Positions 21,194 to 40,823 of a DNA stretch of 64,000 bases are shown one piece after another. Position 1 is the first letter of the stretch; each line of letters begins with the position of its first letter. The notes under the pieces are model-generated. The model was not told the DNA's origin. It did not search any database and worked only from the letters and a program-made list of their open reading frames with translations. A program made the position numbers and the translations under genes. The DNA comes from Halorhabdus utahensis DSM 12940 (GTDB taxonomy: Archaea > Halobacteriota > Halobacteria > Halobacteriales > Haloarculaceae), in the NCBI RefSeq assembly GCF_000023945.1, contig NC_013158.1:2914001-2978000 (forward strand), read 5' to 3'.

Positions 21194-23226
21194 GCCTGGA
21201 GCGCCGGCGCGCGGGGTCACCCATCGGTGAAGCGGGGGGACTCGGCGATACGTTCTACCCACTGTTCGGCCGTCTATTCAACGAAGACGGCGATTTCGTC
21301 GCAAACGTCGAAACGAAACTGGCCGAAGCCCGGATGGCGGACAACGTCGAGATGTTCCTCTCGCGGGCCCTGGCTGTCGGGTCCATCGCCGGCACGTCGT
21401 TGTGGCTCGTCGGCATGTTGCTCGGCTATCTGCTGGTCGCGACGGTCCTCGCCGGTCAGGTACCGTCCTTTCTGGGGCTGGGCTTCCCGAAGAGCGTGCT
21501 CCCGGTTATTCAGGCGCTGAAGCTGCCCTTCCTGATGATCGTTTCGGGCCTGTTGTTCGGCACGATCGGCTTTGCCGTCGGGTTCGGATCGCTGGTTTCG
21601 ATCCCGTACTTCCGGGCCAGTGCCCGTGAACGCCAGATCAACGTGATGCTTTCGGACGCCGTCTCGTTCATGTACGCGCTGTCGGTCGGTGGCCTCAACC
21701 AGCTCGACATTCTCGAGGCGATCGCGGCCGCCGACGACACCTACGGCGAGGTCGCAAAGGAATTCCAGAGTATCGTCCTGGAGACGACGTACTTCGATAC
21801 GGACTACCGCACAGCGATCCGGAACCAGGCCATCCAGACGCCCAGCGACGAGTTGAGTCAGTTCCTGACGGACATGCTCTCGATCGTCGACTCCGGCGGG
21901 GACATGACGTCGTTCCTCGAAGATCAGAAGAACAAGTACATGCGCACGAGCAAGCAGACCCAGGAGCGCATGCTCGAAACCCTCGAGCTGTTCGGGGAGA
22001 TGTACATGACGCTGTCTTTGTTCCCGCTTCTGTTGATCATCATCCTCGTCGTGATGAGCATGATGGGCAACGCGAGCACCCAGCTCATGTACATCACCGT
22101 CTACGGGCTGATCCCGATGATCAACGTCGCCTTCCTGGTGCTCGTCTCGACTGTCACTTCCGATGAGAGCAGCGATGGGTTCTTGCTCCCTGACGATCCA
22201 AAGATGCGCGCCCAGATCGAAGGGGAAACGAACCTGTTCAGCCTCGGTCTGATCGAGCAGTACACGGGGAGCTACGACATCTTCGATCGGATCAACGACC
22301 GCGAAGGGACCCACCAGGTCATTGATATACTGAAAGCACCGCACATTTTCCTGCGCGACAATCCGCCGTACGTGCTTGCCGTGACGATCCCCATCACGCT
22401 GGTTGCTCTGGTGCTCGCCGTGTTGATGGGGTGGGCACCCACCTCTCTGGATGGGATGATCGCCGACCCCCTTCAGGGAACGTTCTTCTGGCTGTACGTG
22501 CCGGCGTACATCAATTTCATCCCCCTTGCGATCTTCCACGAGTGGAACGTCCAGTACCGACACTCGATCATCGGGAAGCTCTCGGAGAACCTCCGAAAGC
22601 TCTCGAGTGCCAACGAGACGGGGATGACGTTGCTCGAGTCGCTGAATATCGTCGCTCGGACGTCCTCCGGTCGGCTGGCCGACGAGTTCTCGATCATGCA
22701 CCGGAAAGTCCAGTACGGGACGAACCTCAAGCAGGCACTCCGGGAGTTCAACAACAAGTATCACGTCCCGCGGCTGAGTCGAACGGTCAAACTCATCAGC
22801 GAGGCCCAGGAGGCCTCCAACCAGATCCAGGACGTGCTCTCGACGGCCGCCCAGGCCAGTGAAAACCAGGACGACATCGATCGTGACCGCAAGTCCCGGA
22901 CGCGGATGCAGGTCGTCATCATCATCATGACGTTCCTGACGCTTTTGGGCGTCATCGCCATGCTGAAGGTCCAGTTCTTCGAGACGATGGCCGGTCTCTC
23001 ACAAACAGCCGACACCGGGGAGTCGATCGGCGGCCAGCAATTCGGTTCGAGCATGCCCAGCAACGACCTGCTCTCGATGCTGTTCTTCCACGCAGTCTCG
23101 TTGCAAGCCATCTTCTCGGCGATCATCGCCGGTTACATCAGAAACGTCCGGATCATCTCGGGACTGAAGTACGCCATTGCGCTGATGACGATCTCGCTCG
23201 TGGTGTGGATGGCCATCGGCGGGTGA
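21190..23226 (+). CDS. pilC: Type IV pilus platform membrane protein, PilC/TadC (GspF) family
   Basis: A 678-residue polytopic protein, with about nine hydrophobic segments. Two GspF-like halves can be seen: the first with VMLSDAVSFMYALSVGGLNQ and the helix pair near residues 270-320, and the second with SGRLADEFSIMHRKVQYG and helices near the C-terminus. This double-length form is normal for haloarchaeal PilC3/FlaJ-like proteins. It would hold the ATPase and pass pilin-like subunits into the fibre. Its stop lies 12 bases from the stop of the convergent cassette 1. Confidence 0.88.
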   Translation: MSLERRRAGSPIGEAGGLGDTFYPLFGRLFNEDGDFVANVETKLAEARMADNVEMFLSRALAVGSIAGTSLWLVGMLLGYLLVATVLAGQVPSFLGLGFPKSVLPVIQALKLPFLMIVSGLLFGTIGFAVGFGSLVSIPYFRASARERQINVMLSDAVSFMYALSVGGLNQLDILEAIAAADDTYGEVAKEFQSIVLETTYFDTDYRTAIRNQAIQTPSDELSQFLTDMLSIVDSGGDMTSFLEDQKNKYMRTSKQTQERMLETLELFGEMYMTLSLFPLLLIIILVVMSMMGNASTQLMYITVYGLIPMINVAFLVLVSTVTSDESSDGFLLPDDPKMRAQIEGETNLFSLGLIEQYTGSYDIFDRINDREGTHQVIDILKAPHIFLRDNPPYVLAVTIPITLVALVLAVLMGWAPTSLDGMIADPLQGTFFWLYVPAYINFIPLAIFHEWNVQYRHSIIGKLSENLRKLSSANETGMTLLESLNIVARTSSGRLADEFSIMHRKVQYGTNLKQALREFNNKYHVPRLSRTVKLISEAQEASNQIQDVLSTAAQASENQDDIDRDRKSRTRMQVVIIIMTFLTLLGVIAMLKVQFFETMAGLSQTADTGESIGGQQFGSSMPSNDLLSMLFFHAVSLQAIFSAIIAGYIRNVRIISGLKYAIALMTISLVVWMAIGG

Positions 23227-23238
23227 TCAGCCGCCGAC

Positions 23239-24099
23239 CTAGTCCAGGGGCTTGCTGAGTTTGATCGTGACGACCCGGATCAACACGTCATCGTTGTTGA
23301 GGCATTCTCCTTGCGTGGCTCCGCCGTTCCAACCCCATCCGTTGGCATTCTCGAAGAACCGTTCCCACTGCTCGGGATGGGCCGTCTCCGAGACATCGAG
23401 TTTGAGGTCAAGGGTTGTGCTGGCGTCTCGAATCTGTTGGTGGTCGACGCGCTCGGCCTCGAAGGTCGCGTACTCGTTGTTTCCGCTGAAGGGCACCGAG
23501 TCTGGGACGTTCGATGGCTTGATCACGATGTCGTTGTTGAACGCTCCTGCCTCGTATATCGAATTGTCTGTCGTCAGATTGACCAGCGAGACGATCGTGG
23601 TGCCATCGGGTGAACACGTGATCGAAGGCCCGTACCTCGGCGTGGCGTAGTCCGTTCGAAAGACCCCGCCGCCCTCGTAGGCGACGTAGATCGTCCGATC
23701 CGAGCGCTCGAAGCGTGTCTCCAGCGCACCGATCGGGATCTCGGCAGTGTCCGGGTTCCCGTCGAGCGCCGATAGATCGATCTGGGAACTCTTGATAGTG
23801 ACTTTCGTCTGATTGAAAAACAGGTTCCCGTCACCCGGTGAGATGTCGAACTGTCGGTAGGCGTCGCCGCTTCGGTGGATGTTGTCAAGTGTCGAGGCGA
23901 CGGCCTGGGTGCCACGGTCGTTGTTCTGGACGTGCTGTGAGCCGGCGAGATCGACGAGTGAGCCGACCGCGAACATCGAGACCAGGGCAACGCTGACGAT
24001 GATGATCGAGAAGGTGAGTGTGAACGCGACGACGTCGGAAAGCGCTCGCTCGTCGTCCGGACCCCCGTCAGTGTCGCGAGTCAAACGTCGTGGCTCCAT
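23239..24099 (-). CDS. Cassette 1 gene 5: pilin-like head-domain protein
   Basis: 286 residues from ATG 24099, which overlaps the previous stop as TGATG; a GTG three codons upstream is the alternative. The N-terminus has a class III-like signal, ERA/LSDVVAFTLTFS, with a single helix right after it (residues 22-45). The remainder is a secreted beta-rich head with NxS/T sites. The YEGGGVFR motif and the late WERFFE segment match the giant protein, the 650-residue protein and gene 5 of cassette 2. It probably corresponds to one of the haloarchaeal pilin-associated unknown-function families (DUF7289-like, from memory). It ends the five-gene cassette convergently with pilC. It may be a minor pilin or a fibre-tip protein. 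Confidence 0.72.
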   Translation of the reverse strand: MEPRRLTRDTDGGPDDERALSDVVAFTLTFSIIIVSVALVSMFAVGSLVDLAGSQHVQNNDRGTQAVASTLDNIHRSGDAYRQFDISPGDGNLFFNQTKVTIKSSQIDLSALDGNPDTAEIPIGALETRFERSDRTIYVAYEGGGVFRTDYATPRYGPSITCSPDGTTIVSLVNLTTDNSIYEAGAFNNDIVIKPSNVPDSVPFSGNNEYATFEAERVDHQQIRDASTTLDLKLDVSETAHPEQWERFFENANGWGWNGGATQGECLNNDDVLIRVVTIKLSKPLD

Positions 24100-24599
24100 C
24101 AGGGACACCCCCCGAGCGTGATCGACTCATCACACAGCGAGACGGTGACGTTCGACCCTGTCACCCGTCCCGGGACGATGTCCGCGTCGGTGTCGATCTT
24201 CCGGGTGACAGATTGGTCGAGCCGACTCACACTCACTTCGAGCACCCCCTGGCCACTGCCATCCGTTCGTAGCTCAATCCGATAGTTATGGGAGTCGATG
24301 ATCCGATCGGGATAGTCGAGGGTCAGCGTCATGCTGACGTTTTGGCCGGTCGCTGCGAGACGGTCGACTGTATTGATGTGTGACATCACGTCCCCATTGA
24401 TCTCCGAGAGCTGGTCGTGACTGATTCGCTCTTCCTGCGTCTCCAACAGGGTTCCCGACGCACTGAGTAAACCGATCAGGAGGACGCCCGTGATCGCAAT
24501 GGTGAGTCCGTGTGTGATCGCGACCGACACGCCCCGGGTGTCCCGGGCGAAGGACCTGCTTCGCCCGGTGAGCGCGACTAGCACCCTCCAGTCTCTCAT
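24099..24599 (-). CDS. Cassette 1 gene 4: pilin-like protein
   Basis: 166 residues. A basic leader of about 20 residues ends in DTRG/VSVAITHGLTIAITGVL, a class III-like cleavage context with one membrane helix. After it comes a heptad-like polar region (EERISHDQLSEINGDVMSH), as in the alpha-helical stalk of pilins, and a small beta domain ending in two cysteines (SLCDESITLGGCP). Its cassette 2 counterpart shows the same plan without the cysteine pair. Start ATG overlaps the stop of gene 3 (ATGA), so translation is coupled. No known function; an assembly or minor pilin role is inferred from context. Confidence 0.7.
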   Translation of the reverse strand: MRDWRVLVALTGRSRSFARDTRGVSVAITHGLTIAITGVLLIGLLSASGTLLETQEERISHDQLSEINGDVMSHINTVDRLAATGQNVSMTLTLDYPDRIIDSHNYRIELRTDGSGQGVLEVSVSRLDQSVTRKIDTDADIVPGRVTGSNVTVSLCDESITLGGCP

Positions 24600-25498
24600 G
24601 AGTCAGTCACCTCGAATACCGTGATGTTCCCTTCGTAGGTTACGCTTGGATCCGCTGTCTTGAGGATGAACGTCGGCATGAGGTCGATGCCGGACTTATC
24701 GACGCAGTCCACTCCGCTTGCCCCACAGTCGGCCTCCACGGCTGAGATTTCGATTGTCGAGCCATTGATGTCCGCACTGTTATGGAGCGTCACGTTGTTG
24801 AAATCACCATAGTCGACGCTGAGGTTCCCACAGAAGTCATCGTCCGTGCTGATCTCGCCGGTCCCGTTGTAAAGATCGACCTGGACTACACTACTGCCGG
24901 TGAAGTCACAGAGATCACTGCCCTCAAATTCAACGTCACTGTTAGTCACATTCAGGAACCTGGTGCCAGCGTCGGTGTCGTTGAATTCGAGCGCGACTTC
25001 CTCTGTGGGTCCCAGCGTCGCGTTCACCGAGACCAGCGGTGCCTCACCAGCCGCATTTTCGAGGAGTCGTTGCGTCCCGCTCAATGATGTGCTCCCGGTG
25101 TGAGACACGATCGCCCCCTCAACCGCTGCGCTGTCGTTGTACGTGGCGTTGACGACCATTGCCCGATCACTGGTGAGGAGTTCGTTGTACTCGGTCCCGA
25201 ACGTTTCGACAACCGTCTTGAAATACTGCTGGTCGACGAACGCGACCCGGTTGTCGTTCGTTGCGATGTCGCTGGCATTGGTGGCAAGAAACGCGGTTCG
25301 GAGCTCGTCACGGAGTTCCATCGTGCTTCGTTCTGTCTCGGCGAGACTCGACGCGTCGGAACTGACGGCGACCTCGGGCGAGGAGTGGACTGAGTTGAGC
25401 AGGACAACGCTGCCGAGCACCGTCAGCGCGATCATGAGGGCAGCGATTACGACTAGTTGGCCCCGGTCGTCGCCACGGCCGTTCCCGGGCGTCACCAT
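24596..25498 (-). CDS. Cassette 1 gene 3: pilin-like protein
   Basis: 300 residues, starting inside the end of gene 2. The leader ends in DDRG/QLVVIAALMIALTVLGSVVLL, again a Arg-Gly/Gln class III-like site followed at once by a single helix. The extracellular part has a long helical region (AETERSTMELRDELRTAFL) and then a beta-rich, Asn- and Thr-rich domain with several NxT/S sites and cysteine pairs (DLCDFTG, DFCGN, DCGASGVDC). It is likely folded by disulfides outside the cell. The counterpart in cassette 2 starts RRG/QMILIGGVLL. The exact family is not recognised beyond the haloarchaeal pilin-associated group. Confidence 0.7.
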   Translation of the reverse strand: MVTPGNGRGDDRGQLVVIAALMIALTVLGSVVLLNSVHSSPEVAVSSDASSLAETERSTMELRDELRTAFLATNASDIATNDNRVAFVDQQYFKTVVETFGTEYNELLTSDRAMVVNATYNDSAAVEGAIVSHTGSTSLSGTQRLLENAAGEAPLVSVNATLGPTEEVALEFNDTDAGTRFLNVTNSDVEFEGSDLCDFTGSSVVQVDLYNGTGEISTDDDFCGNLSVDYGDFNNVTLHNSADINGSTIEISAVEADCGASGVDCVDKSGIDLMPTFILKTADPSVTYEGNITVFEVTDS

Positions 25499-26064
25499 AC
25501 GATCACCTTGAGTTTGACCATGCCGTAGATCTCACTGTCCGTGTCGTGATCGTCCAGATAGAACTCGTCGCTACTGGCATTCTCGAGTGTCTTCCCCGTT
25601 GGGGTGCACGTCCCTCCGGTCCGGACTGGGTCACTATCGTACAGCATCACCTGATCGATGACGGTCCCTGACGCACGCTGTGGGACCGACCGGCTCGACA
25701 ACGACTCGGTCTGGATGGTCCCGCTGGAGTTGATATACTCGAGGGTGATCGTATACGTTCCTCGGTTCTCCAGGGTCTCTTCCAGCAGCGTTTCGAACGC
25801 TGTGTCGGGCGGATCACCGGGATCGAGCATCGCCGGTTCGCCGTCGGTGTCGACACAGGTTGCCGTCGAGCGAAGGAGATTGTCCTCTCTGGCGAGGCTC
25901 ATCACGTCGGCTGCCTGTGTCTCGATCTCCCTGAGATGGTCGCCGTCGTTGTCCGCCGGCGCGACGTCAACGATCTGCATTCCCAGGATGAGCGCGATCC
26001 CGATGATGAGCACGCCGATGACGCCTTCGAGTGCGTAGGCTTGCCCTCTGGTGGTTCCCGTCAT
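25492..26064 (-). CDS. Cassette 1 gene 2: pilin-like protein
   Basis: 190 residues from ATG 26064, one base after the stop of gene 1; an upstream start overlapping gene 1 is less likely. The leader is very short, TTRG/QAYALEGVIGVLIIGIAL, giving a Gln at the expected +1 and a Glu in the start of the helix, like pilins. The exported part carries a cysteine pair (ATCVDTD, GTCTPTG) and ends in KVIVW. The cassette 2 counterpart has the same DRG/QLYTLEGVI start and an EVIVW ending, which is good evidence of common descent. Confidence 0.72.
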   Translation of the reverse strand: MTGTTRGQAYALEGVIGVLIIGIALILGMQIVDVAPADNDGDHLREIETQAADVMSLAREDNLLRSTATCVDTDGEPAMLDPGDPPDTAFETLLEETLENRGTYTITLEYINSSGTIQTESLSSRSVPQRASGTVIDQVMLYDSDPVRTGGTCTPTGKTLENASSDEFYLDDHDTDSEIYGMVKLKVIVW

Positions 26065-26065
26065 G

Positions 26066-26512
26066 TTACCACACCCTGACGACCAGGTCACAGGCGGTCG
26101 TACAGTTGCTGATATCGCTGTTTTGGGTTATCCGGACGGTTCGAACGCTTGTTGCGAGTGGCGCGTCGGACGGCTCGCCTGGACCGGCACTCGCTTCGAT
26201 CCGTCCGTCTTTGCGGAGCGAAATATTGATCTTGCGCAGGTCCGGGACACCACTCCGGTCACGCAGTTCGCTGACGTAATCGGCATCGAACGTGCCTGTA
26301 CTCACGTTGAGGGTGCGTTCTCCGGTTATGGTGGCGTTCGTCTCGATGGCTTCGGCCGCGACCTGATCGGCCATGTCATCGCGATCCCCCGACACCGGAT
26401 CGAAGAACGGATCGAACACCTGGGGAAACAACCAGAAGACTGCCGTTACCGCGATCAGTACCAGCGAGATGCCGAGCAGATAGTCGTATGTCGTCTGGCC
26501 GCGGCTACTCAT
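26066..26512 (-). CDS. Cassette 1 gene 1: short pilin-like protein
   Basis: 148 residues, the first gene of the cassette. The leader is four residues, MSSRG/QTTYDYLLGISLVLIAV, one of the shortest possible class III-like signals, and an acidic residue sits at +5 as in classical pilins. One helix precedes a small exported domain with a CTTAC pair and the ending VRVW. GGAGG lies a few bases before the ATG, so the mRNA is leadered. Its counterpart in cassette 2 shares RGQT...D...LG, the following WLF-P-FDPF-type segment and the VRVW end. Confidence 0.72.
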   Translation of the reverse strand: MSSRGQTTYDYLLGISLVLIAVTAVFWLFPQVFDPFFDPVSGDRDDMADQVAAEAIETNATITGERTLNVSTGTFDADYVSELRDRSGVPDLRKINISLRKDGRIEASAGPGEPSDAPLATSVRTVRITQNSDISNCTTACDLVVRVW

Positions 26513-27022
26513 GGTACCTCCGCAGCCGAGGGCGTAGCTGCCGCCAGCCCACCCGGTCGTTTCGTCTTTCTGTTTCCCCCGGATCTAGCTCTTCCGTCAA
26601 GTCCCGTACGTTCACGTGTATTACCCCAATCGTTGCGTGACGACGCCCAGAATGCGTTGAACCCGGATGTACTGTCCAATGTGGCTATTCGACACGAAAT
26701 CCGGATTCCCCCGCTGCATCCGTGTCACGTATATGCGTGTCAATATGTCGACTCCATACTTTAATCCTCCTATCGGGTATTTGTCCAGTCGGTTCGTATT
26801 ATCTCGTCGTCAGCGTCATCCGACCGATGTTGCGGTACGTGGCCCCTGATTCAGGCAGGCAACATGCTCATTTCTGTCGGTACCGCTTTGACCGAAAGAA
26901 GGGGGCGGATCCGGCATTTTCTGAGACTACGATAAAATCACATTTTAAAAGGGCGTAAAAAATACACGTATAGTAAAATAAATAACGTTTATATTTCTAC
27001 ACTGTGTACTGTATTAACTAAT
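26513..27022. promoter_or_regulatory. 510-base divergent control region between cassette 1 and the giant gene
   Basis: No gene is supported here. The right half becomes markedly AT-rich, with runs such as TAAAAAATAC. A TATA-like element, TTTATATTT, at 26988-26996 lies 26 bases before the ATG of the giant protein gene, fitting a leaderless start. Cassette 1 probably starts from the left half and has a Shine-Dalgarno site instead. The region is the likely switch point of the whole island. Confidence 0.5.
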
Positions 27023-30000
27023 ATGGGGAATCGAGCAGCCGGGGGACTTTATCGTAAGATCCGTGCAGACGAGCGTAGTGTTTCGGAGATACTCGGGACG
27101 GTCCTGATATTTTCGTTCGTAATCTTCCTGTCGGTCGGTCTGATCGTCATCGGGCTCAGCGCCTTCCAGGGCGCGACCGCACAGACCGAGGACCGACTCG
27201 CACAGGACTCCATGCAGGAGATGGGCGACCGGTTGCATTCGCTGACTGGCAGTCAGATCGACACCGCAACCGAGTTCGAATTCCCGACCGGAACCGGGGA
27301 CGATATCAACGCACTTGACGAAGGGGTCGTCAACATCACGATCGAAACACATTCGGATTATGTCGGACTCGTCGAGGCAAGTGATGCCTCGAATTCCACA
27401 GAAATAGACCTCGGCACCATCGAGCACGAAGCGGAGGATGGCACGATCACTGCCTATCAAGGCGGGGCACTGTTCGAGAGGCAGGGCGATCTCATCGAGA
27501 TCCTCCAGGAGCCGACGTTCGATTATCGGGGTGACGCGATCGATCTCTCCTTCCACTCGGTGGACATCGATCAGATTTCGGATGCGGAGTCTATCACGGC
27601 AAAACGGCTGCGCAAACAGTCCGAGGACCAGTCCGAAAAGCTTCGGGAGATGATGCGGCCACACTGGAATCTGACGGGCTATAGCGACATCATGGCACCG
27701 GTCACGATCACGGTCACGATCGAAAGTGAGTACGCCGACGCCTGGCAGATGTACGCCCAAAACCGGATGACGGAGACGCCCACTGTCAATCGGAATGGAA
27801 ACGAAGTCGAAGTCGTTTTTGACAAGTTCGACGGGGGGCTTACGTTCAATACGAATCAGACCTTCGACGACGATGTCTTCTATTCGGGAGAGGCAGCATT
27901 GACCGGCCTGGTCAACGTCTCGAACGCGACGATCGGTGGTTCGGGCGGGGAAGTCGAGGTCGCCGAAATCGACGGTCATGGTGCAGCATCCCCGAGCCCA
28001 CATTACATACTGGGCGTATACAACGAAACGGCCAGTGAGTGGATGATATATAATACGACTGATGGTACTGTTCGAACTCTTACGGGAGATGTCGTGACGA
28101 ACCCGGACTTTCTTGATAGTCCACCTACCCTAAGCAACAACGACACGTACCAGATCGACCCGAAAGACACGTGGACCTGCGTCGTTGATGGGGATCCGAG
28201 TAAAACGGATCACGAGGAGTTTGTCGACTACGTCGACACATCCGGTGAGGGCTGTCTCTCGGAGCCGCTGGTCGGGGACGCGCCCGATGATTCGGTGGCC
28301 AGTCCACATTTCAACGTGTCGTTCGACGACGTCAGGTTGGCCGGGTCGAAGAACATCAACACTGACGACGTCGTCGCCGGACAGGACAAGATCGAGCTCG
28401 ATTGGACTGTCGAAAACGACTACGTCAGCAACGGAACGACGCCGGTCGTCCTGCTGTTCAGTGAAAAGGGTTCGAGTGACTGGATCCCGCTTGAGAAGGC
28501 GGACGTCACTCTCAACGGGACCGGGGATACCGCATCGGACACGTTCACAGTCAACGCGACGGGGAGCGCCAACGTGACTTTCCAGGTCGCCACGTTGGAT
28601 ACGAACGACAAGTCCCAAGAAATCGAGATCGTCAAACGACCGGAGCGAGGGAAGTTCCAGATCGACAGTCTCTCCGTGAACAAGAATACACTCACCGCCG
28701 GCGAGGATCTCCAAGTCGATGTCGAGATCAACAACACCGCATCGATCAGCGACACCCAACTGGTCGAGTTGCAGTTCGACGACAACAGTGGTCCGGCGGC
28801 AGTCGCCTGGAAGAAAGTGAGCGTGAACGCCGGAACGACGAAGACGGTGTCGATCAACTGGACGACTACGAACGCTTTCAACACGTCCAACGGCGAGGTG
28901 ATCGCCGAGACGTATTACGACAACGAATCGGAAACAAACATTACAATCGAAGAGGACACGGGGGCCAACGCCTCTTTCGACGTCACAATTGGAAACGTCA
29001 GTCCCGATCCAGCCACGGACGGAGATACCGTCACGGTGGCGACAAACGTCACGAACGTCGGCAACGAGACGTCTGAACAGGACATTGCACTTCTGGCAAA
29101 CGGAAACATTGCCGACGTTAAACTCAATCAAAATCTTACCAGCAACCAGTCGAAAACCGTCTCTCTGAAATGGGACAGTATTGGATACGGTGGCGAGAAT
29201 ATCATTTTGACTGTGGCCAGTGCCGACGATACGAACCAGACCACAATCTCAGTTCAGGAACTCGAACCGGCGGAATTCCTGATCGACAGCCTTACTGTTC
29301 CTAAGACGAACCTCACGGCCAGCGAAGACTTGCAGGCCACCGCCGAAATCAACAACACTGCGAGCCGAAACGAGACGCAGATCGTCGAGATGCAGTTCGA
29401 CGGGACGCCGGTCGCCTGGAACGAAGTGTCCCTCTCAGCTAACGCAGTTCAGTCGGTGTCTCTCAACTGGACGACGACAAACGCCTTCGAGACCTCCTAC
29501 GGCACGGTGACCGTCGAGACGTACGATGACAGCGCCGCGGAATCGCCGATCGAGATTCAGAAGGGAATGGAGACGAACGCGACCTTCGCGGTCGATATCG
29601 AGAACGTCACGCAACCGATTCACGACGGCGATATCGTCACCGTGGAAGCCAACGTCACGAACGTCGGCAATGAGACGACCGCCCAGGACATCGCGCTCCT
29701 CGCGGACGGGAACATCGCTAACGCCACGCTCAACCAATCGCTCTCCCCTGGCCAGTCGACGACGCTCTCTCTGAAGTGGGACAGTAGCAATCGCGGCGGT
29801 GAGAATGTCACACTGACTGTGGCGAGTGCTGACGATACGGACAGCGAAACGGTGTCGGTCACGGCGGTCGATCCACCGGATTACAATATTGCCATCGACG
29901 ACGTGACCGTCGACGGCGATCCGAACGGCGCGGTCGATCCGGGTAATTCCACCGTCACTGTCGAGGCGACCGTCTCCAACAGCGGCGACAGCGAATCCCC

Positions 30001-33000
30001 GATCGTCTGGCTCGAAGACTTCGAGGATCGCGTCGTGGCGGTCGATGACTCGGTAGGGATAATCGGGATGCGTGCGAGCGATCCTGACAGTACGTCGGTG
30101 ACGCTCCAGTGGAACGTTCCGTCAGACGTCAATACGACCGACCCGGAGATCACGGTCGCCGTCGATGGTGACGAGGACTCAGAGGAACTCGACATCGAAT
30201 CCAGGTTTGTGGTTGAGGATATTCAGACGACAAAGGTGAAGAGCTCGGCGTTCAGTGAACTTCAGATCGAAGACGACTCAACTTCTGGAGGGTTTTGGAC
30301 CTCGGATGAGAGTGAGTTTACCGTCGATTACGAAGTAAATCCGACCTCTGATTTCGACAATGTCACAATTGTGTTCGATGGTGACGGAGGCGTATATGAC
30401 GAACAAGTATCAACGACTACAGACGGTACTGTGACTCATTCCCGGAATGGGGAATACGGCTCGACGTACGACATTACCGCTCAGATCATGGACGACGGGT
30501 CGGTCGTCGAAACAGTCACGAGAGGTGGCGAGGTTGCCGACGGTGACGATCCAGACATGTCTGAGCGGTCCGGTAATCTCGTCGACTCCGTCACTTTCGA
30601 GGCTACCATTGAGAATATCGGCGACACGACCGTTTCCGACACTGTCCAGCTATTTGATCCAGCTGGAAACGAGATCGGTGATACGTCAGTTTCCCTTGAT
30701 GGAGGTGACGATACAACAGTGGTCTTCAATTGGGTTGGTCCTGACCGCACGGGATCAGTGGAGGTCACGACCAAAGACGACTCGGCATCAGAACGCGTGA
30801 TAATCGAACGCGACGGCCCTGTCTGTGAAGCAGTCTCTTACACCGAAGATTCGGAGGGGCGCTACGAGATCAGCAACGTCGATCAACTGCAGTGTATTAA
30901 CGAGCACGGCCTCGATGAAGAGTACGTCCTCGTCGACGATATCGACGCTTCAGGAACCGAACACTGGAACGACGGGAAAGGGTTTGACCCGATCGGCCCC
31001 GAGGGGCACGATTCTATAAGCATTCCAGAGGATGACCCGTGGGAAACCTTCAGTGGTGAATTCGACGGGAACGGACATACTATTGAAGGACTCTACATCG
31101 ATCGACCGAGCGAGAACTACGTTGGGCTCTTTGGCGCAACAGATCGCCCGTATGACGATGTACCAGTTGGATACGGTTCGACAGTTGAGAACGTAATACT
31201 CGAAGACGTTCACGTCGTCGGAAATATGTACGTGGGCGGACTTGCGGGACAAGCTGGTGGTGAGATTATCAACGCACGTGCTGAGGGTTACGTCGAAGCT
31301 GACAAACAGCTGGTCGGTGGACTCATTGGTCTCGGAGCACACGCTGATATAGACAACCGGATCGTTGCTGATGTGGAAGTTGTCGGCGGAAATGTACCGA
31401 GCCACCTCAGTGGTGTGCAGGAAGGGAACGCAAAGGGGATCGGTGGGTTGATCGGTCGCGCTGCGTGGGGAACAGAAATCGCCACGGGCTACAGCACAGG
31501 AGACGTCACGGGCCCAGTTAATGTTGGTGGGATTATGGGTAGTTCTTCACTGGTCGATTCCGAGTTCGAAGAGATGTACTCGGCTTCCACAGTAACGGCA
31601 ACTGCTCCTGGTGCTGAGGGCGGTTCAATTGTTGGCATTGTACAGTCTGACGGTGATCGATTTAACGAGGACATGTATTACGATGAGGCTCTCGAGTCTT
31701 CTGCCTGGGGAGAAGCAGAAAGATGGACTGGATATTCCATTGTCGACATGGATATTGATGAGGTTGAGCAGACTGACTGGATCGGTCGAACGACCACCGA
31801 AATGCAGGGTCTTGACGTGAACGAGCCAGGTCGGTTAGGCAACCTTGACTTCGAAGAAGACGGTGGCCCCTGGGTAGCAGTCCTCGGTGACTATCCCCGC
31901 TTCCAGTGGGAGCTTGAGGCCGAAGGCCAGGTCGGAGTCGACATCGACGAAGACAACCTCGATCCCGTCGTGGCAGGTCAGTCACTGACAGTCCCGGTGA
32001 CACTCACCAACAGCAACTACGAGAACGTTACCCAGACGATCCGGCTCCTCAGTGACGGGACGCCAGTCGATAGCACGAGTGTGACAATCACAGAGCGTAC
32101 GCCCGGTGGCAATTCCACGACCAAAAACGTCTCTCTCACCTGGAACACGAACGAGGACGACGTCGGACCGACCTCCCTCGAAGTGCGAAGCGAGGACGAT
32201 ACCGATCAGGAAACGATCGAGATTGACGCGCCCGCTGTCGGCGATTACCTTGTCGACTCCGTCAGCGCCAACGATCCGACGACTGCCGGTGACGTTCTCA
32301 CGGTCACCGCCGACATCAGGTACAACGGCTCAACGAGTCCCAGTCCTGAACTCGTGACCCTCCAGAACTTCGCCGGTGGCGTCGTCGATAGTACGAATGT
32401 CACCGGGAACACGACGGTAGCTCTCACGTGGGACACGAGTGAGGGATTGATCTCGGGCGGAAACATCACGGATTCGATCACTGTCGGGACGAGTGACGAC
32501 ACCAATACCACCCAGGTGACGATCGAAGCGGCCGGCGATGGCGAGTTCAACGTGACTGCCGTCTCGACGAACGCTCCCATCACGGAAGGCGAGTCCCTGA
32601 ACGTCACCGCCGAAATCGAAAACACCGGTACCGAAACCGGCACCCAGGAAGTATTGCTCTGGGACTTCGACGGCAACGCGGTCGATATCGGTGTGGTCAG
32701 CCTGAACGCGGGTGACTCGACGACGGTCGATCTCACCTGGCAGACGGCCGTCGGCGACAACGGAACAGGCACAATCGAAGTCATCACCGGCGACGACACG
32801 AGGACAGCGACGGTCGACATTACTCCGGCCGGCACCAAGCAATACACCTTCGAACACACCTCAGTCGACGATCCGACCACCGCCGGTGAAACGCTAAATG
32901 TTACGGCTGAAGTCTCCTACAACGGCACAGTCTCACCTCCTCCCTCTGAGCCCGTGACGCTTCAGGACTTCGACGGCAATGTTGTCGATCATGAAACAGT

Positions 33001-33826
33001 CAGCGGAAACAATACCGTGACCCTCCAGTGGGATACCAGCGAGAACCTGGTCACGAGCGGGAGTATCAGCGACGACATCACTGTCGGGACGAGTGACGAT
33101 ATCGAAACGGAGGAGGTTACGATCAACGCCGCAGGCGACGGTGACTTCCAGATTCAGAACCTCGCCACGAACGACCCGGTCACGGAGGGCGATACGCTGG
33201 ACGTCACCGCTACCGTGGAAAACGTCGGTTCGGAAAACGGCACCCAGAACGTCCTCCTCCGGGACCACGGGGACAACGCAGTCGATATCACATCCGTCTC
33301 GCTGGATGCGGGCAATTCGACGACCGTCACGCTCAACTGGAATACGACCGTCGGCGACAACGGTCAGGACGATATCACGGTAACCACCATGGACGACACG
33401 GCGACGCAACAGGTCACCATCGAGGAGCAGCCCGAGGAGCAACTCGACGTTGCAATCACGGAAGTGCGGTACAATGGCTCGCAGATCACCAGCGGGACGA
33501 CGGTAGAGGCAGGAGCCACCCTCGAAGCCGACGTGACAGTCAGCAACGCGACCCAGCAAGTCACGAAGCCGGTGTGGCTCGAGTTCGACGGTGACACGGT
33601 TGCGTTCAACTCCGGCGTTACTGTCAATGCAGGTTCGAACACAGACGTAACTCTGACGTGGAGCGTTCACGAGGCGATGAATGGTTCGGATCTCGTTGCG
33701 AAGACAGGCCACGATAGTGATCTCTTCGACCTGACGATCGAGCGTGTCCAGACGTCGACGAAGCCGCTGACGTCACCCAGCGGGGAGCCGATCGACGTCG
33801 ATCTGGAGAAAATCGCGGTCGGGTAA
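27023..33826 (+). CDS. Giant surface protein: pilin-like N-terminus, CARDB-like domains, GLUG-rich block
   Basis: 2267 residues. DERS/VSEILGTVLIFSF with a helix at about 24-46 resembles a class III signal, but position -1 is Ser instead of Gly/Ala. Residues about 50-330 look like the same head domain as cassette gene 5 (YQGGALFE and a later YADAWQMY). From 543 onward there are about eleven or twelve CARDB-like beta-sandwich domains of about 100 residues, marked by WTTTNAF, LKWDS or LTWDT. Residues about 1269-1638 form a GLUG-rich block (VGGLAGQAGG, VGGLIGLGA, IGGLIGRAA, VGGIMGSSS), typical of adhesins. There is no C-terminal membrane anchor or PGF-type sorting motif. Adhesion or matrix contact is the likely role; fibre incorporation through the pilin-like end is inferred. 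Confidence 0.82.
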   Translation: MGNRAAGGLYRKIRADERSVSEILGTVLIFSFVIFLSVGLIVIGLSAFQGATAQTEDRLAQDSMQEMGDRLHSLTGSQIDTATEFEFPTGTGDDINALDEGVVNITIETHSDYVGLVEASDASNSTEIDLGTIEHEAEDGTITAYQGGALFERQGDLIEILQEPTFDYRGDAIDLSFHSVDIDQISDAESITAKRLRKQSEDQSEKLREMMRPHWNLTGYSDIMAPVTITVTIESEYADAWQMYAQNRMTETPTVNRNGNEVEVVFDKFDGGLTFNTNQTFDDDVFYSGEAALTGLVNVSNATIGGSGGEVEVAEIDGHGAASPSPHYILGVYNETASEWMIYNTTDGTVRTLTGDVVTNPDFLDSPPTLSNNDTYQIDPKDTWTCVVDGDPSKTDHEEFVDYVDTSGEGCLSEPLVGDAPDDSVASPHFNVSFDDVRLAGSKNINTDDVVAGQDKIELDWTVENDYVSNGTTPVVLLFSEKGSSDWIPLEKADVTLNGTGDTASDTFTVNATGSANVTFQVATLDTNDKSQEIEIVKRPERGKFQIDSLSVNKNTLTAGEDLQVDVEINNTASISDTQLVELQFDDNSGPAAVAWKKVSVNAGTTKTVSINWTTTNAFNTSNGEVIAETYYDNESETNITIEEDTGANASFDVTIGNVSPDPATDGDTVTVATNVTNVGNETSEQDIALLANGNIADVKLNQNLTSNQSKTVSLKWDSIGYGGENIILTVASADDTNQTTISVQELEPAEFLIDSLTVPKTNLTASEDLQATAEINNTASRNETQIVEMQFDGTPVAWNEVSLSANAVQSVSLNWTTTNAFETSYGTVTVETYDDSAAESPIEIQKGMETNATFAVDIENVTQPIHDGDIVTVEANVTNVGNETTAQDIALLADGNIANATLNQSLSPGQSTTLSLKWDSSNRGGENVTLTVASADDTDSETVSVTAVDPPDYNIAIDDVTVDGDPNGAVDPGNSTVTVEATVSNSGDSESPIVWLEDFEDRVVAVDDSVGIIGMRASDPDSTSVTLQWNVPSDVNTTDPEITVAVDGDEDSEELDIESRFVVEDIQTTKVKSSAFSELQIEDDSTSGGFWTSDESEFTVDYEVNPTSDFDNVTIVFDGDGGVYDEQVSTTTDGTVTHSRNGEYGSTYDITAQIMDDGSVVETVTRGGEVADGDDPDMSERSGNLVDSVTFEATIENIGDTTVSDTVQLFDPAGNEIGDTSVSLDGGDDTTVVFNWVGPDRTGSVEVTTKDDSASERVIIERDGPVCEAVSYTEDSEGRYEISNVDQLQCINEHGLDEEYVLVDDIDASGTEHWNDGKGFDPIGPEGHDSISIPEDDPWETFSGEFDGNGHTIEGLYIDRPSENYVGLFGATDRPYDDVPVGYGSTVENVILEDVHVVGNMYVGGLAGQAGGEIINARAEGYVEADKQLVGGLIGLGAHADIDNRIVADVEVVGGNVPSHLSGVQEGNAKGIGGLIGRAAWGTEIATGYSTGDVTGPVNVGGIMGSSSLVDSEFEEMYSASTVTATAPGAEGGSIVGIVQSDGDRFNEDMYYDEALESSAWGEAERWTGYSIVDMDIDEVEQTDWIGRTTTEMQGLDVNEPGRLGNLDFEEDGGPWVAVLGDYPRFQWELEAEGQVGVDIDEDNLDPVVAGQSLTVPVTLTNSNYENVTQTIRLLSDGTPVDSTSVTITERTPGGNSTTKNVSLTWNTNEDDVGPTSLEVRSEDDTDQETIEIDAPAVGDYLVDSVSANDPTTAGDVLTVTADIRYNGSTSPSPELVTLQNFAGGVVDSTNVTGNTTVALTWDTSEGLISGGNITDSITVGTSDDTNTTQVTIEAAGDGEFNVTAVSTNAPITEGESLNVTAEIENTGTETGTQEVLLWDFDGNAVDIGVVSLNAGDSTTVDLTWQTAVGDNGTGTIEVITGDDTRTATVDITPAGTKQYTFEHTSVDDPTTAGETLNVTAEVSYNGTVSPPPSEPVTLQDFDGNVVDHETVSGNNTVTLQWDTSENLVTSGSISDDITVGTSDDIETEEVTINAAGDGDFQIQNLATNDPVTEGDTLDVTATVENVGSENGTQNVLLRDHGDNAVDITSVSLDAGNSTTVTLNWNTTVGDNGQDDITVTTMDDTATQQVTIEEQPEEQLDVAITEVRYNGSQITSGTTVEAGATLEADVTVSNATQQVTKPVWLEFDGDTVAFNSGVTVNAGSNTDVTLTWSVHEAMNGSDLVAKTGHDSDLFDLTIERVQTSTKPLTSPSGEPIDVDLEKIAVG
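28649..29875 (+). repeat. Tandem duplication of a two-domain CARDB-like unit (first block, A-B-A-B)
   Basis: Four domains of about 101 residues follow in order A-B-A-B (protein residues about 543, 648, 750 and 851 as starts). Domains 1 and 3 share INNTAS and NWTTTNAF; domains 2 and 4 share VTNVGNET and SLKWDS. A 20-base identical stretch recurs at 29045 and 29651, exactly 606 bases (202 codons) apart. This shows duplication of a pair of domains, not of single domains. Confidence 0.8.
32240..33441 (+). repeat. Tandem duplication of a two-domain CARDB-like unit (second block, A-B-A-B)
   Basis: Domains starting near residues 1740, 1839, 1939 and 2039 again alternate. The first and third share DDPTTAG-like openings, YNGT-S-P and VGTSDD; the second and fourth share TEGESLNVTA/TEGDTLDVTA and VGDNG. 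A stretch of 23 identical bases occurs at 32477 and 33077, 600 bases apart. It is a second, independent pair duplication downstream of the GLUG block. Confidence 0.8.
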
Positions 33827-34290
33827 TCCTCACCGAATCGAGTTGCCGTTGTGAGGTATTTAGGTGTGAATTCATCTCCGATTCGTCTGATGTACTCTCA
33901 GTTGCAAGTTCGAACGGTGTCGCACCCGTCCGATTAGTTGATTCCCGGTGGAGGACATCATCAGCAGAGACAGTCAATCTAAGCTGTCAAAATATCTCAG
34001 AAATGTGAATTTTGATAGATCTATGGGGACGATGTTGGGAGTCACTGTTCCGGGTTTTGATTCTGTTCTGTCTGTTTCGTAGTAATCCGATGCTTTTTGC
34101 CGCTCCCTCCGGTAGCAGTTGGTAAGCATGGGTCCACGTGAGAATATCACACTGTATAATGCGCCATTTATTGAATTTCATGAAATCATATGAGAGAGTA
34201 TGACTTTCGAAGGGCTTCGAAAGACGCTCTCTACGGACGACCTTCCTGTCCGTTCCGTTTTATGGAACTCAGTGACTGAGGCTCATACAG
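33827..34290. promoter_or_regulatory. 464-base AT-rich gap with the promoter of cassette 2
   Basis: No gene or RNA is supported here. A perfect inverted repeat with 9-base arms, CTTTCGAAG-GG-CTTCGAAAG, lies at 34204-34223, about 35 bases before a TATA-like TTTTAT at 34258-34263. The TATA element is 28 bases before ATG 34291. A further perfect 12-base palindrome, ATTTCATGAAAT, lies at 34176-34187. The first of these is a strong operator candidate for cassette 2. The remaining sequence is low in GC and shows nothing recognisable. Confidence 0.5.
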
Positions 34291-34986
34291 ATGCAATTCG
34301 CAGAGACTATCGTCCCAACGCCGAACTATTCGGGTTGCAAGGCCGGGCGTAGCAGTGCCATCAAGTCAATTCTCGCATTGAGGATCGCTATTACGCGGTT
34401 GATTGGGGCCCTCGGAACCCGGATACCGGGAGGCGGACGTGTTCAGCTGCCCTGGGTTGCGGAGCGATCGGCTGTCGAGGACCGTCGTGGTCAGACGAAT
34501 CTCGACTTTATTCTCGGGGTGACTATTCTAGTCGTCGCCGTTGTATTCGTCTGGTTGTTTTTGCCGAATCTATTCGGCCCGTTCGTCGACGGTGATACCC
34601 ACAGCGATTCCCTCGCGGCTGAACGGGCAGCAAACAACCTGGCCGAAGACGCGCTCAAGACCCAGCCCGGGGCCGACGAACTTGACGAGGACTGTGTGGT
34701 GGCGTTCTTCATGGGAAGCTCATCCGCCCCTGGGTGTGGCTTTTCGGGGAGTACGCTCACGGAACAGATCGGGCTGGGTGAACTCCACTTCGCCAACGTT
34801 TCTGCCGAATTCACTAACGGCACGGTCCTTGCGTGGCACGGTCCCGGAGCTGGCGGGTTCAGTGATTCGGGGACGCCGAAACTCAGCAGAGGCGGCACTC
34901 ACGGGAGTACCAGCGATGTGAGCGTGGCCAGACGCGTTGTTTCGATCGACGGCCAGCGAGCAGTACTCGTTGTAAGGGTGTGGTAA
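34291..34986 (+). CDS. Cassette 2 gene 1: pilin-like protein with long leader
   Basis: 231 residues. From residue 66 the sequence DRRG/QTNLDFILGVTILVVAV matches gene 1 of cassette 1 (RG/QTTYDYLLG), with a single helix, an acidic +5 residue and the VRVW ending. The first 65 residues have no equivalent in the paralogue, and no ATG lies closer to the match, but a TATA-like element 28 bases before 34291 supports this start. Alternative TTG starts would give a shorter leader. The exported part has three cysteines (EDCVVAF, APGCGF). It begins the five-gene cassette on the plus strand. Confidence 0.65.
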   Translation: MQFAETIVPTPNYSGCKAGRSSAIKSILALRIAITRLIGALGTRIPGGGRVQLPWVAERSAVEDRRGQTNLDFILGVTILVVAVVFVWLFLPNLFGPFVDGDTHSDSLAAERAANNLAEDALKTQPGADELDEDCVVAFFMGSSSAPGCGFSGSTLTEQIGLGELHFANVSAEFTNGTVLAWHGPGAGGFSDSGTPKLSRGGTHGSTSDVSVARRVVSIDGQRAVLVVRVW

Positions 34987-34987
34987 C

Positions 34988-35605
34988 ATGGATCGAGGCC
35001 AACTGTACACACTCGAAGGTGTGATCGCCGGGATGCTTCTGTTACTGTCATTGCTGTTCGTGGTCCAGGCGCTGGCTGTCACCCCGCAGTCCGTCAACGG
35101 TGGGAGCCAGGAGGCCATCAACCAACAGCGAGCAGTCGCGGATACCACACTCCAGTCGATAAACGAGACCACGCTTCGGCGGGCCGTCACGTACTGGGAC
35201 AGTAGTGATGGCTTCCACTGTACCCCCAGCGATGTCAAATTCTATCCGGGCTACGCCGACACGTCGTCGTGTAACCCGCCGAATCCCGATGCGCTCCCGC
35301 CGAATCGATTTGGTGCGATACTGAACGCATCACTCGGGAGCGGCTACAGTTACAATATCGTTGTGTCGTCACAAGACACCTCGAACAATGTCCTGCGTCA
35401 GCGAATGGTCTACCAGGGCCAGCCGGGGAGTGGCGCAGTCAGGGCGTCCCGATCGATCCTCGTTTTCGACGACGACCCACTGATTGCAGCAGACGGCTCG
35501 GAGAGCGGAACCCAGGCACAGGGTAACCTCTATGGCACCGATAGTCACCCCTCGAACAGCATGTATAACCTTCTGCGTGTGGAGGTGATTGTATGGCGCG
35601 GGTGA
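34988..35605 (+). CDS. Cassette 2 gene 2: pilin-like protein
   Basis: 205 residues, starting one base after the stop of gene 1, just as in cassette 1. MDRG/QLYTLEGVIAGMLLLLSLLF gives a three-residue leader before the Arg-Gly/Gln site and one helix. A helical region (QEAINQQRAVADTTLQSINET) and a beta domain with a cysteine pair (FHCTPSD, SSCNPP) follow, and the chain ends EVIVWRG. The N-terminus and C-terminus match gene 2 of cassette 1 closely. Minor pilin-like assembly protein by context. Confidence 0.72.
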   Translation: MDRGQLYTLEGVIAGMLLLLSLLFVVQALAVTPQSVNGGSQEAINQQRAVADTTLQSINETTLRRAVTYWDSSDGFHCTPSDVKFYPGYADTSSCNPPNPDALPPNRFGAILNASLGSGYSYNIVVSSQDTSNNVLRQRMVYQGQPGSGAVRASRSILVFDDDPLIAADGSESGTQAQGNLYGTDSHPSNSMYNLLRVEVIVWRG

Positions 35606-36450
35606 CCGATCGTCGCGGCCAGATGATCCTGATCGGCGGCGTCTTGCTCGCCGTCACGATCATCGCCCTGGCGGTCGTTTTCAACAGTGCGATCTATACC
35701 ACGGTTCTGGCCGGCGAGAGCCAGGATGATGTTTCGAGCCGTGAACCGCTCGGATTCCAACAGGAAGTCCGCCAACTGGTCGGTGCCACCGTCGAACGCG
35801 CGGTACAGCAAAGAAGTTCACTCAATAAGCAAAAGGATTATGTCACGAACAACCTTTCGGCCGTGAGAGAAAATCTCCGTCGGTATCAGGCAGATGCAAA
35901 CCGTCTTGTTGACGTCTCGGTGGCTTCCAATATTTCCGGTGCATTTATTTATAACTCAACTGGTTCCTTTGTGAACGAAACTGGCCACGATGATTGGGAG
36001 GTTGGAACTGGCCTCCGCGTTCGAAACATGTCGTTTGACGTATCTTCGACCTCGGGATTCATTGTCGAGATAACCGGCGATGGTGGAGACGCATACGAGC
36101 TCGACATCGGTTCAGACGTCGCTGTGACTGGACCGACTACGTCGAAGACGTGCTCCTGGTCCGGGTCTGGGCACGTCAATATCACTGAAAGCACAATAAA
36201 CGGTGATCGGTGCAACGCTTTGGACTTCTTCGAGCGTCTCGAAGCACCGTACGACATCCAGTTTCGACAGGGGAGCAATGCTCAGGGCCGATACAGTTTG
36301 CTCGTTACGCCATCGGGATCGATTTCAAGTGACGTGGCGAGTCAGGACCGGACTGACCGACTGTTCGGTGTCGATGTTGCGACAGAGTATGTCACCACCG
36401 AGATCGACTGGGAAACAACTCTCAGGGTCGCCCCGGGTGAGCCGCCATGA
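35593..36450 (+). CDS. Cassette 2 gene 3: pilin-like protein
   Basis: 285 residues; ATG 35593 sits inside the end of gene 2, in the codons for its terminal WRG, a junction shared with cassette 1. VTDRRG/QMILIGGVLLAVTIIALAVVF gives the class III-like site and one helix. The exported region has a long helix (EVRQLVGATVERAVQQ, NLSAVRENLRRYQAD) and then a beta domain with NxS/T sites. It corresponds to gene 3 of cassette 1. The middle is less GC-rich than typical genes in this window. Confidence 0.72.
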   Translation: MARVTDRRGQMILIGGVLLAVTIIALAVVFNSAIYTTVLAGESQDDVSSREPLGFQQEVRQLVGATVERAVQQRSSLNKQKDYVTNNLSAVRENLRRYQADANRLVDVSVASNISGAFIYNSTGSFVNETGHDDWEVGTGLRVRNMSFDVSSTSGFIVEITGDGGDAYELDIGSDVAVTGPTTSKTCSWSGSGHVNITESTINGDRCNALDFFERLEAPYDIQFRQGSNAQGRYSLLVTPSGSISSDVASQDRTDRLFGVDVATEYVTTEIDWETTLRVAPGEPP

Positions 36451-36929
36451 CCCCACGACCAGAGAGACGAAAGAAGTGTCGAACGCTCTCCACGGACGAC
36501 CGCGGCGTCTCCCGGATGATCAGCTACATGCTGACTGTCGGGATCGCGATGGTCCTCATCACCGGATTGTTCACGGCCGGGAGTGCGATTGTCGAGGACC
36601 AGCAGGACCAAACGGCCCGGACGCAACTGTCGATCGTCGGCCAGCAGGTCGCCGGGTCGGTCGAAGTCGCTGACCAACTGGTTCGCTCGACTGCTGCCAG
36701 GCCGTCTCAGCTTGTCGTGACGCGGTCGCTGCCGGAACGGATCGCTGGATCGGGGTATCGCATCGAAGTTTCCGGCGGTGATACTGTCATTTTGCGCCTG
36801 ATGGGCGATGATTTGGCTGTCAGTACCCATATCGACGCTGAAACGACAGTGACGGGCAGTGCCCAGGGGGGCACGATCGAAATTGTGCATCAAACTTCAA
36901 GCGGAAATCTGGTGATTCAAAATGGGTGA
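36447..36929 (+). CDS. Cassette 2 gene 4: pilin-like protein
   Basis: 160 residues, overlapping gene 3 by four bases. A basic leader (PRPERRKKCRTL) ends in STDDRG/VSRMISYMLTVGIAMVLITG with one helix. The helix runs into a polar stalk (EDQQDQTARTQLSIVGQQVAG), then a small domain with VTRSLPERIAGSGYRIEVSG, similar to the MTLTLDYPDRI...NYRIEL region of cassette 1 gene 4. That shared region supports homology over the full length. Role inferred as a minor pilin. Confidence 0.72.
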   Translation: MTPRPERRKKCRTLSTDDRGVSRMISYMLTVGIAMVLITGLFTAGSAIVEDQQDQTARTQLSIVGQQVAGSVEVADQLVRSTAARPSQLVVTRSLPERIAGSGYRIEVSGGDTVILRLMGDDLAVSTHIDAETTVTGSAQGGTIEIVHQTSSGNLVIQNG

Positions 36930-37686
36930 ATTTCGCGATCGGGAGCGTGCCGTCAGCGAAGTCTTCGGGTTCATCCTGCTGTTTTCGATCGTCATCTTGT
37001 CGATCGGAGCCGTCTCGATTTTCGGTGTGAATAGTCTGAATGAAGGACGAGACGCGGCGCTGATGGATAATATGGAGCGCGGTTTCGAAGGGATGGCGTC
37101 CACAATCGATGATCTTGAACCCGGAATGTCACGATCGACGAGTTTGCGTTTGGAGAGTGGGCAGTTACGGATCGGTGAGGAGACTTGGATCAATGTATCA
37201 GTTGGAGGGACAAAAGAGATCAAAAACAGCGTCTCCCCGTTGCTCTATACCTTTGACGATGAACGAATAATCTACGTCTCTTCCACAGTATTTCGAGTAT
37301 CTGAGGAAAGTGGAGTCATCGTCCGGCCACCGGCTTTTGAACTGAGCCAAAGCGGAACTATCATCTCTGTCCAAAATACGATCCCATCACGAGCAATTTC
37401 CATTGGTGGTGGAACTGCACAGATGAGATTTACCGCTCAGGCCCCGAAAAACCCTACCGTTGATACAGGTAACTCAGTAGAGATTGATATCGATGCGCCC
37501 TCTGAAGCACAAGCAAGTCTGTGGGAATCGGCCTTGGTAGAGCGACTGGTTCGGGGTGGGATGTCAGAATCCACGGCGGAATCTAAATGTAGTCGAGCCG
37601 GTAGCAAGGTAGAATGTGTTTACAATGTCAATTCTGGAGAAGATACACTGGTTAGATCAGTCGTGGTATCGGTTGAACTCAGATGA
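36922..37686 (+). CDS. Cassette 2 gene 5: pilin-like head-domain protein
   Basis: 254 residues, overlapping gene 4 by eight bases. DRERA/VSEVFGFILLFSIVILSIGAVSIF is close to the start of haloarchaeal PilA-type pilins and of the giant protein (VSEILGTVLIFSF). Then NMERGFEGMASTIDDLE forms a helical stalk and the head shows IIYVSSTVFR...PPAFEL, matching the gene 5/giant/650-residue family. The gene is AT-richer than the window average. It ends 38 bases before the convergent 650-residue protein gene. Confidence 0.75.
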   Translation: MGEFRDRERAVSEVFGFILLFSIVILSIGAVSIFGVNSLNEGRDAALMDNMERGFEGMASTIDDLEPGMSRSTSLRLESGQLRIGEETWINVSVGGTKEIKNSVSPLLYTFDDERIIYVSSTVFRVSEESGVIVRPPAFELSQSGTIISVQNTIPSRAISIGGGTAQMRFTAQAPKNPTVDTGNSVEIDIDAPSEAQASLWESALVERLVRGGMSESTAESKCSRAGSKVECVYNVNSGEDTLVRSVVVSVELR

Positions 37687-37724
37687 GCAGTTCTCCACAC
37701 CATCTTCTCCGATGCTATCGTGAC

Positions 37725-39677: not shown

Positions 39678-39930
39678 TTTGGAACTCACTATATCAATTA
39701 CGATAGTCGCCAAGAAATATATTTCGGTGATTGTAGCGGTCTCAAATTCGATTTCGACAAAAATACACTGCTGATAATTTAGGCGTGATGGCTTCCCGGG
39801 ACTGGTCTCGACTTTCACAGCGGCCATTCGAGATCAGTGTCTCTGACGTGATCGTCCCTCAGTTTCTTCGTGAGCGATATCATTCCGTGCTGCAGTCTGT
39901 CCGATGCGACTCCCGGATGCTCGTTTGGCG

Positions 39931-40680: not shown

Positions 40681-40823
40681 GTGGATAATTACCAAGGGTT
40701 TGCTGCGTATGACTCTTCGGGTAGCAGTCGGTCCGCCGGGTTGGGGTCTGCCGACTATCGAAACAGTCGGTGTGTCCGCCGATCTCTCGCTCGGGGGACG
40801 CTGTCACCTGGATTTGACCGTTC

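Follow-up and report, generated by a model that had tools for sequence, protein, structure and literature searches.

Introduction

The closest described relative of the system treated here is the haloarchaeal PilB4 locus (H. volcanii HVO_1160), which, in the account by Makarova et al. (2016), comprises a long PilB with extra N- and C-terminal regions, a PilC and its own pilin-like set, with a major pilin of its own proposed; the same account describes one pilin family of the locus as prone to duplication and variable in length, and pilin sets and motors as evolving in modules, with modular exchange of pilin sets between motors (PMC4858521). We analysed a 64,000-nt stretch of Halorhabdus utahensis DSM 12940 (hereafter the window; NC_013158.1, positions 2,914,001 to 2,978,000, from a genome of one contig of 3,116,795 bases), where a locus of the PilB4 type, with a pilB of 853 aa, pilC and five adjoining pilin-like genes, carries two five-gene sets in mirror order. 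The five minus-strand genes are termed set A, the five plus-strand genes set B and a third set elsewhere in the genome set C. Gene 5 of these sets fits the described family of variable length. Unlike the PilB4 locus as described, the window holds two sets unrelated by recent descent, mirrored behind one pilBC pair, and we found no mention of allelic block exchange at the pilC end, of stacking or of lectin or VWA modules in the accessible part of that paper. To that account the present data add a sharply defined edge where pilC reaches its stop codon, the replacement of the whole block in near-identical genomes, the binding modules on the alleles and the stacked mirror state.

Bacterial pili offer further parallels. 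The Myxococcus xanthus type IVa pilus possesses three minor-pilin/PilY1 clusters for one machine, which were proposed to yield different pilus tips (PMC7541494). It resembles the present locus in having several minor-pilin sets and a large adhesin per machine, but its families are bacterial ones and PilY1 is a separate protein, whereas the large protein here has a pilin-like head; the likeness is drawn without demonstrated homology. Interchangeable minor-pilin tips are also reported for a second Myxococcus machine, the Kil/Tad pilus (PMC12075869). The PilC of archaea likewise belongs to the TadC type; the Kil/Tad pilus itself is a bacterial predation system, whose tip proteins would be counterparts by analogy. 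PilB and PilC of Streptococcus sanguinis are modular minor pilins with a proposed tip location, in which an adhesive module (a lectin in PilC) is grafted onto a pilin head (PMC8179133, PMC9934059). The archaeal modules sit on DUF7266 or DUF7289 heads instead, a likeness of plan that is not shown by descent.

Results

The cassette behind pilC is exchanged as a block

Across seven Halorhabdus genomes, pilB, pilC and the elongation factor gene EF-2 are kept, while the cassette between pilC and EF-2 varies as a block. PilB and PilC of the congeners are 79–92% identical to those of the window and EF-2 is 97–98% identical across the genus. The Halorhabdus PilC proteins form one group in the tree and their proximal cassettes do not (approximately unbiased (AU) test, p = 1.5e-6; all AU tests were run under the simpler LG+G4 model). 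On the DNA level, the window and congener G121 share 89% similarity up to position 23224, two nucleotides short of the end of the pilC stop codon at 23226, and similarity resumes only at 39948. Compared with congener G114, similarity covers set A and the giant gene beside it and skips set B and its partner. Three layouts result: pilC, genes 1–5, a long gene-5 gene, DUF5781 and EF-2 in G117–G121; pilC, inverted A, the giant gene and EF-2 in G114, with DUF5781 missing at that place; and pilC, inverted A, the giant gene, B, a long gene-5 gene, DUF5781 and EF-2 in the window. Set B thus keeps the standard orientation beside DUF5781, with A and the giant gene lying between B and pilC. The original prediction had placed the two sets in mirror order around a giant adhesin-like gene. 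This arrangement is real, and the ten open reading frames lie where they were reported; the giant gene, however, is not the centre-piece of both sets, because G114 has it head to head with A and lacks B.

The motor and the flanks are therefore constant and the block between them is exchanged, and the most likely reading of the window is that two alternative cassettes have been stacked at a single site of exchange. Stacking is the simplest account of the three layouts, with the order of its events a tentative reconstruction. We consider it probable that a fixed PilB4-type motor is followed here by an exchange site, reaching from the pilC stop to DUF5781/EF-2, at which alternative adhesive minor-pilin tip sets are swapped or stacked.

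Exchange and layouts in other haloarchaea

The operon order pilB-pilC-F1-F2-F3-F4-F5 is near-universal in haloarchaea. As anticipated in the original prediction, the five-gene order recurs elsewhere: pilC followed by genes 1–5 in exact order and direction was found in 61 of 80 named loci, and most of the remainder run into a contig edge or lack one weak gene. Of 117 genomes sampled across the order, 94 contain DUF7287, the family of gene 1, usually in one copy, with two or three copies in many genomes of the family, and it tends to occur together with long-form PilB (both in 89 genomes, neither in 12, only one in 16). It is also present in the control genome of Haloferax volcanii. Behind the set, a long gene-5 paralogue is frequently found in convergent orientation.

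Exchange at the pilC end is seen outside Halorhabdus as well. In the Halomicrobium-type pair G059 and G098, the DNA agrees at 96.6% up to the pilC end, shows no similarity over 5.9 kb and agrees again at 94% at the distal gene 1; Halomicrobium katesii carries the G098 allele. In the swapped pairs the measured genes change together. Salinibaculum (L125/L126) and locus L109, set against other Haloarcula-type loci, look like further cases of exchange. Of the distal set of G059 a remnant is left (L048, 12490–14593): genes 2–5 are deleted relative to G098, while gene 1 is retained together with a portion of the long gene-5 gene.

Tandem double sets that follow a single pilBC and are separated by a large gene-5-like gene occur in several Haloarculaceae (G098, G137, G166, G188, G201 and G205), and G178 has three sets. 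A set inverted relative to pilC was encountered in 3 of 122 loci, namely the window, G114 and G036. The double set with a giant gene in between is a recurring layout, of which the mirror is the rare part.

Two further arrangements were seen. Downstream of pilC in Salinibaculum litoreum (L125), a second set stands in opposite direction behind the first, with genes 5, 4 and 3 read before the locus ends; this mirror is convergent, in contrast to the divergent one of the window. In L102, L109 and L129, pilC and gene 1 are 4–9 kb apart, and the unrelated genes that fill this interval, among them one whose start is Tat-like, look like an insertion at the same pilC end.

Sets A and B belong to different lineages

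At each of the five positions, the A gene and its B counterpart fall into the same Pfam family, including DUF7289 for gene 5, with all matches above the curated cut-off. The matching of the pairs proposed earlier is confirmed in this respect, and family membership likewise bears out that they are closer to each other than to unrelated one-helix proteins. The expectation that each pair would be reciprocal best matches within the genome fails. A and B are 28, 23, 14, 27 and 25% identical for genes 1–5, while B and C are 37, 41, 29, 33 and 28% identical, so that B (28–41% to C, 14–28% to A) is nearer to C for every gene. Set C, located at about 719 kb (region 709000–728999; L036, 7242–10632), is complete in its five genes, stands without pilBC, is adjoined by its own long DUF7289-DUF7308 gene and is inherited together with Halorhabdus G119/G120.

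In concatenated trees, A groups with G114 inside the pilBC-proximal sets, and B groups far from A with the proximal set of G059, which is of another genus, and an orphan set of G003. An AU test rejected a clade joining A (with G114) and B at p = 7e-51. The best outside match of the long gene-5 paralogue at 37.7–39.8 kb is the gene that occupies this position in G059 and shares its domains. A homologue of the giant gene stands at the corresponding place in G114 and is 82% identical to it across the first 300 residues. Against G114, set A shows a ratio of nonsynonymous to synonymous substitution (dN/dS) of 0.12–0.23, indicating purifying selection; B lacks a close relative for such a comparison. 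Judged by these sequences, A and B belong to different deep, old lineages. The mirror is not a local duplication, because A and B lie in different lineages and a third set exists, and local duplication is rejected by the trees, the AU test and the closeness of B to C.

Pilin-like character and binding modules

All ten cassette proteins show an R-G or R-A step ahead of a hydrophobic segment, and a class III signal (R/K-G/A step before a hydrophobic helix) can be read in both large partners as well. A position of the step near the N-terminus, claimed earlier for nine of the ten genes, was confirmed, the exception being B1, which as called from 34291 has about 65 residues before the R-G step and no good nearer start. 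A simple class-III-like pattern was positive in 17 of 350 window reading frames, 10 of which lie within 23.2–39.8 kb and correspond to nine cassette genes and the partner of B; most of the other seven look like chance. The partner of B carries a class III signal at its start and a DUF7289 head by Pfam, and the giant gene has a gene-5-type head recognised at 83 bits by a custom gene-5 profile only, not by Pfam. The structure model of gene 5 (B5) consists of a helix at residues 7–63 and a subsequent beta-rich head (predicted local distance difference test score, pLDDT, 92), a pilin-like layout, and that of gene 2 of helices and then strands (pLDDT 85). Comparison of the gene 5 model with viral structure models gave no useful match.

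The link to PilB and PilC drawn in the original prediction holds, as pilB and pilC are encoded directly to the left of the sets, and no other of the five PilB-like ATPases of the genome shares the C-terminal region of this pilB. Equally in line with it, neither a PilA nor a prepilin peptidase is visible in the window; a genome search located ten PilA-type pilins and one Peptidase_A24 prepilin peptidase, all outside it.

Binding modules are found on proteins of the relatives. In congeners and further relatives, gene 4 can encode proteins of 350–870 aa with PKD and lectin domains; in that of congener G121, PKD and ricin-B lectin stretches are joined to a DUF7266 head, and that of G137 carries PKD and a Laminin_G_3 lectin domain. 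Among 12 enlarged gene-4 proteins, PKD_4 is present in 11 and Laminin_G_3 in three. Of 37 long gene-5 proteins, 12 contain VWA, 12 CARDB and 13 DUF7305, and VWA partners accompany the Halorhabdus alleles L082, L097 and L098.

Discussion

A proposed model of exchangeable tips

We propose a model in which whole cassettes of five minor pilins, together with large gene-5-like adhesins, would be replaced or stacked by recombination behind pilC. In the window, cassette A with the giant CARDB adhesin lies inverted directly behind pilC, and cassette B with its DUF7289-DUF7305 partner lies in standard orientation beside DUF5781 and EF-2. The class III signals would be cleaved by the prepilin peptidase encoded elsewhere in the genome, and the five proteins may assemble on PilB-PilC as a priming or tip complex. 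Binding domains would be presented by the large proteins of gene 5 (or gene 4), so that the target bound by the pilus would depend on which cassette is in use. We infer from these data that the five are minor and not major subunits, that their place is at the tip and that a single motor serves all three sets. The tip or priming complex is suggested by the conserved gene order and the adhesive modules, and the large partners as putative adhesive heads by the binding modules of relatives along with the S. sanguinis and Myxococcus precedents. Of the two functional readings offered in the original prediction, one fibre with alternate parts is accordingly preferred, and the cell probably changes pilus adhesion by exchanging tips instead of building new machines.

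Several observations weigh against this model. Pfam finds no lectin or VWA domain in A, B and their partners, and gene 4 is short in both sets; neither the gene 5 nor the gene 2 model matched a solved PDB structure at E <= 0.001. In genus g11 of family f5 (G005, G034, G053, G061, G069, G077, G085, G093 and G105), long PilB is present and no DUF7287 was found, where the pilin set may have been replaced or be too divergent for detection. Finally, Makarova et al. predict that the PilB4 system has arCOG03926 as a major pilin of its own (PMC4858521).

This last point leads to the strongest rival explanation, in which every cassette specifies an entire pilus, major pilin included, and the one motor makes a different fibre from each of A, B and C. 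In size and N-terminus, gene 4 comes closest to PilA, with 150–165 aa in A and B, and the locus contains no PilA-type gene. However, a gene 4 of 350–870 aa with PKD and lectin domains, as found in relatives, would be an unusual main subunit, the genome encodes ten PilA-type pilins at other places, and PilB3-C3 of H. volcanii assembles PilA pilins encoded in trans (PMC6491452). We therefore regard separate fibres as rather unlikely.

It is improbable that one set is the decaying, non-functional leftover of an older allele. Decay does happen, as seen from the visibly broken distal set of G059, and the N-terminal extension of B1 is odd, but the five B genes and their partner are intact reading frames with family scores mostly better than those of A, and A is under purifying selection. 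Still less credible is an invertible, shufflon-like switch with one set read at a time, as the mirror order with divergent promoters and the inverted A of G114 might suggest: A and B are too different to recombine, the orientation in G114 is the same, no recombinase was recognised among the genes read in the block, and no long inverted repeats occur within 23.1–27.1 or 33.7–40.9 kb, the two block ends not having been compared in one search. Least probable of all is the duplication within genome or genus by which the original prediction explained the same five families, in the same order and side by side; with A common to G114, B and its partner nearest in another genus, and the AU result above, it stands refuted unless long-branch effects mislead every tree.

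Significance of the exchange

Haloarchaea encode dozens of pilin-like proteins without an assigned role. All five Pfam families of the cassette are annotated as of unknown function, and literature searches yielded neither a paper naming them nor a described phenotype for the PilB4 locus. Block exchange gives the five families a joint and testable role, and modular lectin and VWA minor pilins are suggested for archaea as in bacteria. The natural allele swaps, both within Halorhabdus and between G059 and G098/Halomicrobium katesii, offer pairs with a constant motor and constant flanks, in which only the putative tip set differs.

More tentatively, the interval from pilC to EF-2 in Halorhabdus, and more widely the region after pilC in Haloarculaceae, could be a dedicated exchange site for pilus-tip cassettes. 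Complete adhesive sets, each of five minor pilins and a partner with lectin, VWA or CARDB domains, would then move among lineages as mobile alleles and be stacked in some genomes. If true, a single recombination event would retarget one motor, and viruses that bind pili, episymbiotic nanohaloarchaea or new polysaccharide substrates would perhaps drive the exchange.

Gene content of the locus

The features of the locus are collected in Table 1. For the long gene-5 paralogue, the likely start is Met51, at about 39677.

Table 1. Coordinates (window positions) and assignment of the genes from pilB to EF-2.
Feature	Position	Strand	Evidence and remarks
pilB, long-form assembly ATPase, PilB4 kind, 853 aa	18632..21193	+	Pfam T2SSE E 1e-30; weak PilB3_N/PilB3_C
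pilC, TadC-type platform	21190..23226	+	Pfam T2SSF; stop codon is left edge of exchanged block
A5, DUF7289	23239..24108	-	Pfam E 1e-30
A4, DUF7266	24099..24599	-	Pfam E 1e-10
A3, DUF7261	24596..25498	-	Pfam E 6e-8
A2, DUF7288	25492..26055	-	Pfam E 7e-35; alternative ORF start 26091
A1, DUF7287	26066..26512	-	Pfam E 3e-27
Giant gene-5-like putative adhesin, 2,267 aa	27023..33826	+	Class III signal; seven CARDB stretches (Pfam); divergent partner of A
B1, DUF7287	34291..34986	+	Pfam E 3e-37; long N-terminal extension as called
B2, DUF7288	34988..35605	+	Pfam E 2e-47
B3, DUF7261	35593..36450	+	Pfam E 3e-6
B4, DUF7266	36447..36929	+	Pfam E 7e-24
B5, DUF7289	36922..37686	+	Pfam E 4e-67
Long gene-5 paralogue, DUF7289 + DUF7305, 700 aa	37725..39827	-	Pfam; convergent partner of B
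DUF5781 gene	39931..40695	-	Pfam E 7e-117; first conserved gene at right edge of exchanged block
EF-2	40893..43082	+	Conserved flank; named from own sequence

A 19-nt stretch upstream of B1 (34224–34242) is 95% identical to 36483–36501 in the start region of B4, which could be chance or the relic of an older set. The GC content is 52–59% at 22000–40000, compared with 62–65% across most of the window, in line with foreign or surface-gene DNA.

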